Below, in pieces: positions 2,864-61,859 of a stretch of DNA of 64,000 nucleotides. The DNA is from Acetobacteraceae bacterium (GTDB lineage: Bacteria > Pseudomonadota > Alphaproteobacteria > Acetobacterales > Acetobacteraceae). Where the stretch lies: positions 1-64,000 of the forward strand of contig PLXO01000214.1 in assembly GCA_003151425.1 (NCBI GenBank), in the 5' to 3' direction. Each line of letters opens with the position of its first letter. The first letter of the stretch is position 1. The position numbers and the translations under genes were made by a program. Under the pieces are notes generated by a model. The model searched no databases. It worked only from the letters and a program-made list of their open reading frames with translations, and was not told the DNA's origin.

Positions 2864-2981
2864 CGCAGGTGGACGACGACCCGATATGATCAAGCGCCGC
2901 GACCGTGGCGACCGGATGTTGCGGGAGATCGTCCGCAGTTATAACGTGAACCACTACACGATTTCGAGGCTTGCACCATGA
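2856..2981 (+). CDS. 41-residue helix-turn-helix mini-protein (resolvase-type HTH)
   Basis: The ORF starts at ATG 2856, overlaps the previous gene by 8 bases and overlaps the DUF2971 start in an ATGA. The second half, MLREIVRSYNVNHYTISRL, matches the C-terminal HTH of serine recombinases, in which a helix of the type IARSYNVSHSTISRL binds DNA. The catalytic recombinase domain is absent. It could be a free-standing HTH protein of the kind often predicted in alphaproteobacteria, or a remnant of a resolvase. A shorter start at ATG 2886 is possible. Confidence 0.6.
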   Translation: MDDAGGRRPDMIKRRDRGDRMLREIVRSYNVNHYTISRLAP

Positions 2982-3808
2982 GCGCCACCACCGAGCCGCT
3001 AGAGCCAACAAAGCGACCCGATTTTTTCTATAAATATCGCCCCTTGGGAAGCGATCTTGAGAGACAAAGGCTGCTTCAGATCGTCGAAACCAGCAAAATC
3101 TACTATGCGTCACCAGCAAGTTTTAATGACCCATTCGATTGCAAGGTTCCACCAGTGGGGTCATTCGACCCATACTTTCTCCGATATCTAATTGCAGCAC
3201 AAAACGCTAAGAGCGACGAGGACCATGCGGAAGTCTACTGGAAATTCCTTGCCATAGGATCTAGAACGGAGACCGAACGAAATGCAATGCACGCAGATTT
3301 GAGTGCAGCGGAGTACGTCGAATTCAAAGCCTTTGTCGAGAGAATCCGGCACAAGGTCAACGAGGCAGGCGTGCTCTCTTTTTCTGCCATAAATGACAAC
3401 ACGCTTATGTGGTCACATTATGCAGATCATCACAGAGGCGTATGTCTAGGGTTCTCATTAGAGAAGTGGCCGGAAATGAAATTAGCTCTATATCCCGTAA
3501 CATATTCGGTTCAACGTCTTCCCCTAAAGTTCGACGAACAGAGCTTTAGAGACGGGCGACTTATACAAGCCATAGCTTATACAAAGGATCAGTCGTGGTG
3601 TTATGAACAGGAGTGGCGAGTCTCGGGCAAGGCCCCTGGAGAGTTTTCGTTTCCCTCTGATGCACTAGTCGGGATCGTCTTCGGCTGCATGACCTCCGAT
3701 GCAGACAAGGCCCGTGTAAGGCGCGCTGTAGTAGGTAGAAGTCACGTTGTGCTCTATCAAGCTAGGATGAAGGAGAAGGACTTTGGACTAGACATTCTCC
3801 CCTGCTGA
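2978..3808 (+). CDS. DUF2971 domain-containing protein
   Basis: The 276-residue protein shows the DUF2971 hallmarks: FFYKYRPLGS at the start, a YYASPASFNDPFDCK segment near residue 45, and LMWSHYADHHRGVCLGF near residue 145. A late EQEWRV motif follows. The biochemical function of the family is not established. No signal peptide or membrane helix is seen. The base composition is clearly more AT-rich than the neighbourhood, which marks it as acquired. It is the last gene of a three-gene overlapping series and sits between inverted repeat arms at 2421 and 4934. Confidence 0.9.
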   Translation: MSATTEPLEPTKRPDFFYKYRPLGSDLERQRLLQIVETSKIYYASPASFNDPFDCKVPPVGSFDPYFLRYLIAAQNAKSDEDHAEVYWKFLAIGSRTETERNAMHADLSAAEYVEFKAFVERIRHKVNEAGVLSFSAINDNTLMWSHYADHHRGVCLGFSLEKWPEMKLALYPVTYSVQRLPLKFDEQSFRDGRLIQAIAYTKDQSWCYEQEWRVSGKAPGEFSFPSDALVGIVFGCMTSDADKARVRRAVVGRSHVVLYQARMKEKDFGLDILPC

Positions 3809-4510: not shown

Positions 4511-4933
4511 TCCTGGCAGGTTCGTCGCGCTACAGGTGATCAATAACTGTTGGGCCGATGGCTTCAACGATTGCCCCCGGCGCGACCATGCCGTGGATGA
4601 CGGGCAGCACGGGCCCACCATCGCCACGACTGACAGGCTACGGCGCACGCTGGAGGGCCTGGAGGCGGCGGGCGCGTCAAACGTGATGCGGCTCGGCGCC
4701 GAGGCGCTGGAGGGCCTTCCTGGAGGCGCTGGAGGTAGGTTCGGCCCGGCAGCGCAAAGCCTACCGGGCCGGCGCCGCGCACGTTCGGCAGAGGGCGCAC
4801 GCGGGATAGGTCCGGCAGCACTCCGCCGAACGTATCGGCAGCCGAGTGCGCCGGCTGGCGCACATGTCACCATGCGGCCATGCAAGCAGGAACGGCAGGC
4901 AATGACTCCTGATCCGACTCCCGTGCACTTCCC
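4511..4933. other. Non-coding stretch with duplicated short motifs
   Basis: I see no gene. The stretch has GC-rich imperfect repeats (GGAGGCG-type and GTTCGGC-type motifs around 4660-4860) and ends at the inverted arm at 4934. Confidence 0.4.
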
Positions 4934-4974
4934 TGCTTCGTGGTCTTCGTGTCTTCGTGGTGAACCCTGCTTGC
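4934..4974 (-). repeat. Short-period repeat arm (family H), right arm of the 2.4/4.9-kb pair
   Basis: The reverse complement of this stretch reads GCAAGCAGGGTTCACCACGA and then the same periodic CGAAG units as 2421-2460, with only one or two differences over 40 bases. The two arms point at each other across the DUF2971 and secreted-protein genes. Confidence 0.85.
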
Positions 4975-4991
4975 GGTGCATCAGCGCCCGG

Positions 4992-8093: not shown

Positions 8094-8220
8094 GTGGAGT
8101 CCGTCCCTTTTCGTCATGGTCGGGCTTGTCCCGGCCATCTATCGCGGCAGAGTGCCGCTACGGATGCCCGGGTCAAGCCCGGCCATGACGAGGAGAGACG
8201 CAGACGAAGCAAAAAGGAAC
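8094..8220. repeat. REP-type palindrome (family B), copy 1, with upstream region of the binding-protein gene
   Basis: From 8112 to 8190 the sequence carries GTCATGGTCGGGCTTGTCCC and, after a short spacer, the inverted partner GGGTCAAGCCCGGCCATGAC. This is the GTCATGGCCGGGCTTGACCC type of repeat seen again at 24991, 49216 and 61377. It lies between the DUF35 gene and the binding-protein gene. Confidence 0.85.
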
Positions 8221-17017: not shown

Positions 17018-17453
17018 GATCGTTACTGCCCATGAGAGACAGCGAGGAACCGCACAAAGGCACAAAGGCACAAAGGCACAGAGGAGAATATCAGGCTGAT
17101 CACTTGGTCTTCTGCTCTGTGCCTCTGTGCCTCTGTGTCTCTGTGGTGAGTCTTGCTTCCTGTCATGCGGCAGCAGCACAGATTCCTTCGAACATTGAGT
17201 ATATGAGTCTTTGTTTGGGCGGTATCATTGTGGTCCGCGACACGTTGCACGGACTGGCGAAGGCACGGCGGTCGCCAGCCCCGCCGAAAACTCTCCGCCT
17301 TTTTTCGTCGGAAATGTGGGCCACATCACTGCCAAAAGTGGCGGGCTGCCTTTCCTATGGTCCGGTGAGCCGCGAGGCCTCTACCGTCGGGTTCGTAACG
17401 TGACGCGAGCTTGGCGGGACAGCAAAGCGAGCCTGGAGAAACGGAGAGCAGCC
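17018..17453. repeat. Hairpin element (family H) and upstream region of the mlaC-like gene
   Basis: At about 17053-17088 there are CACAAAGG units ending GCACAGAGGA. At about 17112-17160 the inverted partner reads CTCTGTGCCTCTGTGCCTCT and ends GTGGTGAGTCTTGCT. The arms pair imperfectly here because the left arm has mostly AAAGG units and the right arm CAGAGG units. The remaining 290 bp hold no gene that I can support. Confidence 0.7.
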
Positions 17454-30198: not shown

Positions 30199-30306
30199 AT
30201 TAACACAGAGACGCAGAGGCCGCAGAGAAGCAACGAATTTGGCGCTTCGCGCGGAGCGCATTTGATCTTCTCTACGATCCCGACGGCCTCTGCGCCTCGG
30301 TGTTAA
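30199..30306. repeat. Hairpin element (family H), copy with GCAGAGGC arms
   Basis: The left arm TTAACACAGAGACGCAGAGG continues CCGCAGAGAAG. The right arm CGGCCTCTGCGCCTCGGTGT ends in TAA and pairs with it, with a short insertion near the loop. The loop core TTTGGCGCTTCGCGCGGAGC continues GCATTT and recurs in other copies. Confidence 0.85.
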
Positions 30307-30370
30307 TGCTGTCCCACCAACGTACACAGGCAGCGGACAAAGTGGTACGCATCAAGACGAAAGGCAAAAG

Positions 30371-31703: not shown

Positions 31704-31826
31704 GACCCTCCCCCTCCCCTTGAGGGAGGGGGTCGGGGGGAGGGGTCGGCGCGCAACAGGTTTTGGTGCAGTACTGGTAGCAACCCCTCACCCCAACCCT
31801 CTCCCTCAAGGGGAGAGGGAGAGTCT
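31704..31826. repeat. GC-rich palindromic repeat, family A, copy 2
   Basis: The element begins CCCCTCCCCTTGAGGGAGGG and ends CCTCAAGGGGAGAGGGAGAG. It separates the two LLM oxidoreductase genes and may attenuate read-through. Confidence 0.85.
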
Positions 31827-37509: not shown

Positions 37510-37713
37510 AAGCAAGGTTCACCACAGAGGCACCGAGACACCGAGACACCGAGACACCGAGACACCGAGAAGGCAGGATATGCGCAGCGCGCGAAGCCAG
37601 CAAATCTCGTTATGGCACGGCGACGTTGCCTCATCGTCATGGCCAAAATGAGAATTCTGGCGCGAAGCGCTATCGATTCCCTTCTCTCTGCCTCTGTGGT
37701 GAACCTTGCTGTC
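37510..37713. repeat. Hairpin element (family H), copy with ACACCGAG units
   Basis: The left arm is AGCAAGGTTCACCACAGAGG and then five ACACCGAG-type units. The right arm TCTGCCTCTGTGGTGAACCT ends in TGCT and pairs with the outer part of the left arm. The loop contains ATATGCGCAGCGCGCGAAG on the left and GGCGCGAAGCGCTATCGA on the right. The extra units in the left arm have no counterpart on the right, so this copy has expanded on one side. Confidence 0.85.
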
Positions 37714-45603: not shown

Positions 45604-45741
45604 ATTCTCCCCCTCCCCTTGAGGGAGGGGGATGGGGGGAGGGGTTGGTGCCGGGGTCGCACCGAACATTCTCACCGCGTCGACCCCTCCCCCCGCCCTT
45701 GGTCCGCTTCGCGGCCCAAGCCCTCAAGGGGAGGGGGAGAA
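45604..45741. repeat. GC-rich palindromic repeat, family A, copy with full arms
   Basis: CCCCTCCCCTTGAGGGAGGG at the left and CTTGGTCCGCTTCGCGGCCC then CTCAAGGGGAGGGGGAG at the right. It fills the gap between the racemase-family gene and the aldolase gene. Confidence 0.85.
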
Positions 45742-49215: not shown

Positions 49216-49323
49216 TCGTCATGGCCGGGCTTGACCCGGCCATCCCCGCCAGCACCGTGCTGCGACGGATGGCCGGGTCACGCTGTGCCCTCGGGCACTT
49301 GACCCCGCGCGCCGACCATGACG
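49216..49323. repeat. REP-type palindrome (family B), full copy between the two permease genes
   Basis: GTCATGGCCGGGCTTGACCC and its partner GGATGGCCGGGTCACG plus a distal GCGCGCCGACCATGACG form a large palindrome. The first ATG of the downstream permease frame (49318) lies in the right end of the repeat. Confidence 0.85.
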
Positions 49324-54628: not shown

Positions 54629-55009
54629 CGCCGCACCATCACATTACAGCGAGATGGCGGAATGTGTTAATCGGATGACACTGTCCCCTACGCGATAATC
54701 AACAAAATCAATGAGTTGAGTTTTGCGTGAAAAGTTAGTCAATGTTGTGGGAGGCCAGAGAACAAGCGGCTTTCGACACCATCGCCCAGCATTTGCCCAC
54801 AAACTTATCCACAGACTTTTGGGGATATCGAGCGGCCCCGAACTTTTCTCCCCCTCCCCTTGAGGGCTTGGGCCGCGAAGCGGACCAAGGTTGGGGGAGG
54901 GGTCACGCGGTGTGAGCTTCGGCACGACCCTGGCACCAACCCCTCCCCCCTAACCTTGGTCCGCTTCGCGGCCCAAGCCCTCAAGGGGAGGGGGAGAGAG
55001 CGTTGGCTT
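54629..55009. repeat. AT-rich stretch with one DnaA-box-like site and family A repeat copy
   Basis: From 54650 to 54840 the DNA is unusually AT-rich for this genome and contains one TTATCCACA at 54805-54813, the DnaA-box consensus. A single box is not an origin. From 54845 to 55000 the largest family A repeat copy follows, with the CTTGGGCCGCGAAGCGGACC pattern on both arms. Confidence 0.65.
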
Positions 55010-61404: not shown

Positions 61405-61441
61405 CTTGCCTCATGCCCCCCGTTAGGCACCTCTGCACTAA

Positions 61442-61856
61442 GGCGACGCCCAACAACGAACGAATCGACTGCGGTTTGTGGGTAGCGGTGAATCTCGTCC
61501 GTATCGCGGCCCTGCTTCGGACAAAGCAAGCAAGTAATCCATTAAAACACGGAGTTTCACAGAGTATCCACAGAGTTTCACAGAGAGTAAGCATATGCGC
61601 TGCGCGCAAGGCGTTTTGACCGGTACACCTGTCGTCAGCGCGAAGCGCCAAAAGAATCTACTCTGTGAAACTCTGTGGACACTCTGTGAAACTCCGTGTT
61701 TTAATGGATTACTTGCTTGCTGTCCGCTTGATTGCTTTGCCGCGGTCCGCACAGGCCCCGGACATGCTCACCTCACCGGCATCAGATCGTGACCTCCGGA
61801 CTGGAATTGTCTGCGGCGAGGTCGTCACTTCGAAGCGGCAATTGTTGGGCGTCGCC
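61442..61856. mobile_element. MITE-like element with 15-bp terminal inverted repeats
   Basis: GGCGACGCCCAACAA at 61442-61456 is the exact inverted repeat of TTGTTGGGCGTCGCC at 61842-61856. Both ends are followed outward by TAA (61439-61441 and 61857-61859), which fits a 3-base target duplication of the TNA kind seen with some IS5-family elements. The 415 bp between have no transposase and hold the long hairpin at 61525-61721. Confidence 0.75.
61525..61721. repeat. Hairpin element (family H), best copy, inside the MITE-like element
   Basis: Two 61-base arms (61525-61585 and 61661-61721) match as inverted repeats with a single mismatch. They contain TTTCACAGAG and CCACAGAG units and an outer AGCAAGCAAGTAATCC. 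The 75-base loop contains ATGCGCTGCGCGCAAGGCG and CAGCGCGAAGCGCCAAAAG, matching the core of the copy at 30.2 kb. Confidence 0.9.
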
Positions 61857-61859
61857 TAA

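Follow-up and report, generated by a model that had tools for sequence, protein, structure and literature searches.

Intergenic hairpins of an Acetobacteraceae genome as probable gene-less members of a fold-back element encoding a GxxExxY protein

The long hairpins of a 64,000-nucleotide stretch of an Acetobacteraceae genome (contig PLXO01000214.1 of assembly GCA_003151425.1, hereafter the window) are probably non-autonomous copies of a fold-back mobile element; the coding form would be a GxxExxY gene lying between inverted arms of C-R-C-R-R-A-G/T units. From the sequence comparisons described below we put the probability of this reading at about 0.72. An earlier note on this DNA had grouped the hairpins into one family with a similar loop core and copy-specific complementary arms, and had named RNA structure, a transposable unit and a recombination signal as possible functions. 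They do form one family, and the second of these functions gains support from the nuclease gene that the same arms flank elsewhere in the genome.

Hairpins of the window and of its genome

The hairpin at 61525-61721 has a left arm (61525-61585, + strand) with the units CACGGAG and CACAGAG (x3) and an outer AGCAAGCAAGTAATCCATTAAAA, which is 98% complementary to the right arm (61661-61721, - strand); as the earlier note had described, the two pair over 61 bases with one mismatch, at 61566. Between them lies a loop (61586-61660) with a GC-rich core (GCGCTGCGCGC; GGCGCTTCGCGC on the - strand at 61638-61649). This hairpin sits inside a larger element bounded by a terminal repeat, GGCGACGCCCAACAA, at 61442-61456 (+ strand) and 61842-61856 (- strand), with TAA just outside on both sides (61439-61441 and 61857-61859), and the homology between the window and a second locus, L058, ends at the left repeat. 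Larger terminal-repeat elements of this kind carried some hairpins of this genome along, the focal copy included, and some hairpin subfamilies here were probably copied together with the elements that enclose them. Three such elements have multiplied with their hairpins, at 61442-61856 of the window (GGCGACGCCCAACAA), at L086:2795-3137 (CAGGGCAATCGCAYTTGGC) and at L083:13803-14089 (CAGCRATTCKCATT), and the type with terminal repeat CAGGGCAATCGCAYTTGGC is present in several copies in the genome. The near-identical pair formed by the focal hairpin and L058 was dropped as a test of coupled arm change because the larger enclosing element is common to both.

The window holds 5 inverted repeats, each 24 nt or longer and at 85% identity or more, while 20 second-order Markov shuffles produced none. 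A 957-kb sample of this genome yielded 40 inverted repeats with such units, a few of which are overlapping calls of one hairpin; hairpins like those of the window number about 35 in this sample. Across the genome GGCGCTTCGCGC, the core, was counted 67 times and its reversed control 20 times. A recurring core, as the earlier note had proposed, is found in exact form in the copies at 30199 and 61525 and as variants in those at 2421 and 37511, but it is absent from the one at 17053. Complementarity of the arms within a copy is similarly uneven, holding for 61525 and nearly throughout for 2421/4934, but only over the outer 28 nt at 37511 and imperfectly at 17053.

The copy at 37511-37710 pairs through 37511-37538 and 37683-37710, with a five-fold ACACCGAG array confined to its left arm; a similar one-sided array elsewhere in the genome (L029:10700) is confined to the right arm. 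The copy at 30199-30307 has arms at 30199-30222 and 30284-30307 and an exact core, GGCGCTTCGCGC, and the copy at 17026-17173 has imperfect arms (17026-17088 and 17110-17173) that differ from each other (CACAAAGG against CACAGAGG). What had been listed as copies at 2421 and 4934 belong together as the two complementary arms of a single element whose interior measures 2.5 kb, a left arm of CACGAAG units (2419-2463, + strand) and a right arm (4931-4976, - strand) that match except at a few positions. An open reading frame between them (2978-3808, + strand) encodes a DUF2971 protein that matches the candidate defence family PDC-S31 (E 2.9e-50) and is possible cargo. An Rfam search at the window hairpins gave no match. 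Two further repeat families share the window: an unrelated hairpin family with arms of type CTCCCCCTCCCCTTGAGGG (1002-1134, 31704-31825, 45605-45741 and 54847-54997), and palindromes at 8102-8200 and 49229-49283 with arms resembling GGCCATGACG / GGCCGGGTCA.

GxxExxY genes between hairpin-type arms

We suspected that repeats of this kind border GxxExxY genes in general, and tested this. The TIGR04256 profile has 14 matches in this genome, seven of them full-length or nearly so, and the full-length genes are bracketed by inverted hairpin-type arms, which are clear in some cases and in others partial or cut by a contig end. Gene-bearing and gene-less copies share arm subfamilies: CCGCGGAGCACGCGGAG joins gene-bearing L009 with gene-less L062 and L029, ACACAGAGACGCAGAGATCTCAGGGATCTCAGAG joins gene-bearing L015 and L016 with L084 and the window copy at 30199, AACGCAGATGCAGG joins gene-bearing L013 and L014 with L027 and L064, and CACCACAGAGGCACAGAG joins gene-bearing L012 with several copies, among them the window copy at 37511.

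The association extends far beyond this genome. We took 80 named GxxExxY loci from genome contigs of Pseudomonadota, Bacteroidota, Planctomycetota, Chloroflexota, Acidobacteriota, Verrucomicrobiota, other phyla and methanogenic archaea, and scored the 76 with enough flank. Matched inverted flanks, defined as exceeding the 99th percentile of Markov shuffles, were present at 56 of the 76, as against 1.9% of 1044 control windows from the same loci, and the arms consist of about three tandem C-R-C-R-R-A-G units; at 20 loci no arms were detectable. If the hairpins were chance low-complexity sequence, their repetitive arms would be accounted for, but the absence of comparable inverted repeats from the 20 shuffles of the window, together with the matched arms at these gene loci, refutes this explanation and leaves it a negligible probability.

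Hairpin arrays outside Mariprofundaceae also follow the gene, occurring in 7 of 18 genomes with it and 19 of 306 without (p 1.7e-4, for genomes that are not independent of one another). The expectation that all genomes with hairpins also have the gene was discarded in view of hairpin-rich genomes such as G194 and G075, with 88 and 21 CACRRAG arrays, respectively, and no GxxExxY gene at E 1e-3. Such genomes could reflect gene loss, incomplete assemblies or another partner.

The earlier note had also described the arms as specific to each copy and matched to each other. Among hairpins of this genome, a left arm finds its best match in its own right arm in 33 of 39 cases, and identity between copies is 41%; the 95% identity of the arms within copies is partly built in, since the hairpins were found as inverted repeats, but their copy-specificity is not. 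At the 76 gene-anchored loci, which were picked without regard to having arms, a left flank is best matched by the right flank of its own locus 24 times, where about 1 is expected. The description is thus partly borne out.

On a tree of 131 GxxExxY proteins, 88 of which have a clear arm unit type, the full unit requires 37 changes (shuffled mean 58.5, minimum 53), and the last base of the unit, G or T, requires a single change (shuffled mean 12.3, minimum 10). The tree is built on few columns and many of its forks are weak, but the fork between AG and AT units has 99% support. Proteins of both clades coexist in three genomes (G000, G436 and G438), each with its own arm class, and therefore the host does not explain the class. 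On this tree, arm units thus co-segregate with the GxxExxY protein.

The protein, of about 115 residues, belongs to the GxxExxY family (TIGR04256 / PF13366; 146.6 bits against a cut-off of 35, and 145 against 22), and dN/dS between pairs of its genes is 0.04-0.28. A search of the PDB by sequence gave nothing useful. The structure model (pLDDT 95.7) has as its best PDB match the Cas4 protein SSO0001 (Foldseek E 0.025, probability 0.93; Z 9.2, rmsd 3.3 over 95 residues), and many PD-(D/E)XK nucleases rank below it; XisH-like and Holliday-resolvase-like matches, at Z 6-7, are among many middling ones. D62, E72-x-K74 and Q86-xxx-Y90 are invariant in 45 GxxExxY proteins, and the last of these recalls the QxxxY motif, a feature of Cas4 and RecB nucleases. 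By its modelled fold and its D...ExK residues, GxxExxY is predicted to be a PD-(D/E)XK nuclease. It shares the fold and the D, ExK and QxxxY residues with Cas4 and RecB-like nucleases, but we describe it as Cas4-like rather than Cas4, because the 45 proteins have no invariant cysteines for an iron-sulphur cluster (C28 is nearly invariant) and the Pfam Cas4 score, 14.3 bits, is below the cut-off of 22.7; PADLOC Cas4 matches weakly (E 0.004), and the protein is small.

Matched arms and the occupation of junctions

The trpD-trpC junction of Mariprofundaceae has arms that vary between species and match within a copy. At this junction 16 of 28 arm pairs have changed on both sides and 91.6% of cells are paired, a level that 0 of 500 shuffles reach. 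This covariation could come from correction in place, or different elements could have arrived. Judged by their nearest relatives, the resident GxxExxY proteins are out of step with trpC, and three genomes that are close by trpC, in a short comparison (G244, G274 and G086), carry different GxxExxY lineages, which favours arrival over correction.

Orthologous hairpins in Flavobacterium can be followed as residents. Between two close species (G503 and G446), whose flanks at the compared sites are mostly 92-100% identical, 11 orthologous hairpins with 258 arm pairs have 11 changes in a single arm and 0 coupled changes, and at five other sites the junction is shared but its hairpins differ or are strongly altered. 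In eight orthologous elements an arm matches its own partner no better than that of another species (0.63 against 0.62), and their left arms resemble each other at 0.84. The earlier suggestion that changes are copied from arm to arm is not supported, for resident copies, by either comparison, and correction in place was rejected on the 258 orthologous pairs; covariation of paired arm positions, proposed as a check, is present at trpD-trpC but absent from these orthologous hairpins. Since orthologous arms drift singly and lose their match, we assign arm matching to new or incoming copies, in which it later decays.

Quasi-palindrome correction by template switching at the replication fork is a known process in bacteria that would yield matched arms from elements with no enzyme of their own. 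The lack of coupled change among the orthologous pairs, the persistence of the one-sided array in the 37511 copy and the association with a gene, which it does not explain, make it a very improbable source of the matching. A function as RNA deserves somewhat more weight, though we consider it improbable as well. The hairpins would act within intergenic transcripts and be cut by RNase III, selection on the RNA stem would keep the arms matched, and the nuclease gene would be a passenger. The focal hairpin has a very strong predicted fold as RNA (-141 kcal/mol, z -18), many hairpins lie between the stop codon of one operon gene and the start codon of the next, A/G differences make up much of the variation and would be tolerated by G-U wobble, and intervening sequences of the same build are excised by RNase III (PMC4990558). 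If selection on a stem maintained the match, however, resident arms should not drift singly (0 of 11 changes coupled) and old orthologous copies should not lose it; some of the coupled changes at trpD-trpC turn G-C into U-A, for which there is no wobble intermediate, and the arm units track the protein tree.

Single junctions are occupied repeatedly. The trpD-trpC junction is, depending on the genome, empty with overlapping genes, filled by a hairpin of 80-110 bp or filled by a gene-bearing element, and two Flavobacterium junctions have the same three states in related species. A Flavobacterium junction downstream of map (L319-L335) is an insertion hot spot across species, where members of two GxxExxY subfamilies, unrelated short hairpins and inserts of other kinds are found. 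The four bases ATGA, in which trpD and trpC overlap, are present on both sides of the element in Mariprofundus, a doubling that would be forced in any case if both genes are to stay intact. Direct repeats outside the arms show no excess that would indicate target-site duplication (86 loci with fuzzy ends; 4.37 nt for own flanks against 4.28 nt for crossed ones), and the comparisons revealed no transposition event. Wherever a G503 hairpin site could be set against G446, the latter was occupied too, and hairpin activity is therefore low or old. Clean empty sites were found neither in this genome, where the paralogous copies compared held the hairpin, nor in Flavobacterium, where G446 was occupied wherever comparable and distant empty relatives were too diverged to define the ends. 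Plasmid records contain few copies (8 of 72,556) and viral contigs 5 loci, and neither set revealed a vehicle for the element.

This pattern bears on whether the element reaches new sites or mainly exchanges occupants between old ones. If the nuclease cuts a resident hairpin at its arm units and repair copies in another, occupants would be exchanged and new sites would be rare. Such homing between hairpins would account for different arms, different element lineages and both gene-bearing and gene-less forms at one junction in related hosts, for hairpins nested inside the loops of other hairpins, and for the lack of a detectable target duplication. It leaves the first arrival at an empty junction unexplained, however, and empty and occupied sites exist side by side within one genus. 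We regard homing as a plausible though not the leading account, and as a variant of the fold-back mobile element proposed here rather than its opposite.

For the fold-back element itself, we suggest that the GxxExxY nuclease would recognize the arm units and cut there, acting on the hairpin or on a single-stranded form. A new copy might then be made from a folded-back strand, with both arms drawn from one template, and either be delivered to a junction between genes or be exchanged there, after which the arms would mutate independently. The copying and delivery steps are the most tentative part of this account, although a fold-back intermediate would be the simplest way to obtain both arms from one template.

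Known systems and a possible wider class

A literature search found no name for the element, in line with the earlier note. GxxExxY is nearly absent from the literature searched, which did not extend to subscription papers: two of 5.39 million papers name it, neither in this context, and searches on the unit sequences, PF13366, fold-back elements and S23 with hairpins returned nothing on GxxExxY or S23 arm elements.

GxxExxY elements are closest in build to 23S rRNA intervening sequences and in ecology to REPINs and RAYTs, and they lack those defining features of both that were tested here. Intervening sequences are short hairpins with one small open reading frame that have been called selfish and are excised by RNase III (PMC4990558). 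The elements described here resemble them in being short hairpins with complementary ends and one small reading frame in the loop, but whereas intervening sequences lie in 23S rRNA and carry an S23 gene, GxxExxY elements are intergenic, with a nuclease gene and arms of tandem units. The window hairpins have no Rfam match, protein genes border the copies at trpD-trpC and in Flavobacterium, and no S23 gene was found in this genome, which has GxxExxY instead. REP sequences and REPINs combine many gene-less hairpins with few copies of an associated RAYT gene (PMC3116915, PMC2817692), as the present family does with its accompanying gene, but RAYT is a tyrosine transposase, whereas here a predicted PD-(D/E)XK nuclease gene lies between the arms and the units vary from copy to copy. 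The GTAG or CGTC tag that defines REP repeats (PMC3733652) is replaced by C-R-C-R-R-A-G/T units. Like MITEs, the hairpins are short, intergenic and gene-less with terminal inverted repeats; unlike them, they have tandem-repeat arms, no detected target duplication and a coding partner that is no known transposase. Free-standing homing endonuclease genes are likewise lone small nuclease genes that recur at the same sites in related species, but they differ from GxxExxY elements, which have inverted arms of their own and many gene-less copies.

Inverted arms of tandem units also border genes of the S23 family (TIGR02436; S23/four-helix-bundle) in Flavobacterium, Mariprofundus and elsewhere; these arms, with the units GTAGGGCA, GGCAATA, GTGAGAT and AAAGTCG, are copy-specific and of a class different from GxxExxY arms. 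These loci (L389-L418, for example L403, L396, L404 and L415) were put through a simple shuffle test only, and we offer as a lead that the S23 family may have the same architecture as GxxExxY elements. It is conceivable, although we hold it with some doubt, that both belong to a general prokaryotic class of fold-back elements, in which two or more unrelated small proteins, including a solo Cas4-like nuclease and an S23/four-helix-bundle protein, would be served by fresh, matched, protein-recognized arms in each copy and would re-occupy the same operon junctions repeatedly.

If the fold-back reading is true, GxxExxY, a family of many phyla, would gain a function, and a common type of repeat between genes would have a source. 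A nuclease of 115 residues, Cas4-like and acting alone, that mobilizes the hairpin around its gene would make a minimal mobile element and could serve as a tractable model of DNA recognition by such nucleases, in which the AG/AT arm code would make recognition directly testable. The parallel S23 elements may, in turn, bear on how rRNA intervening sequences spread.
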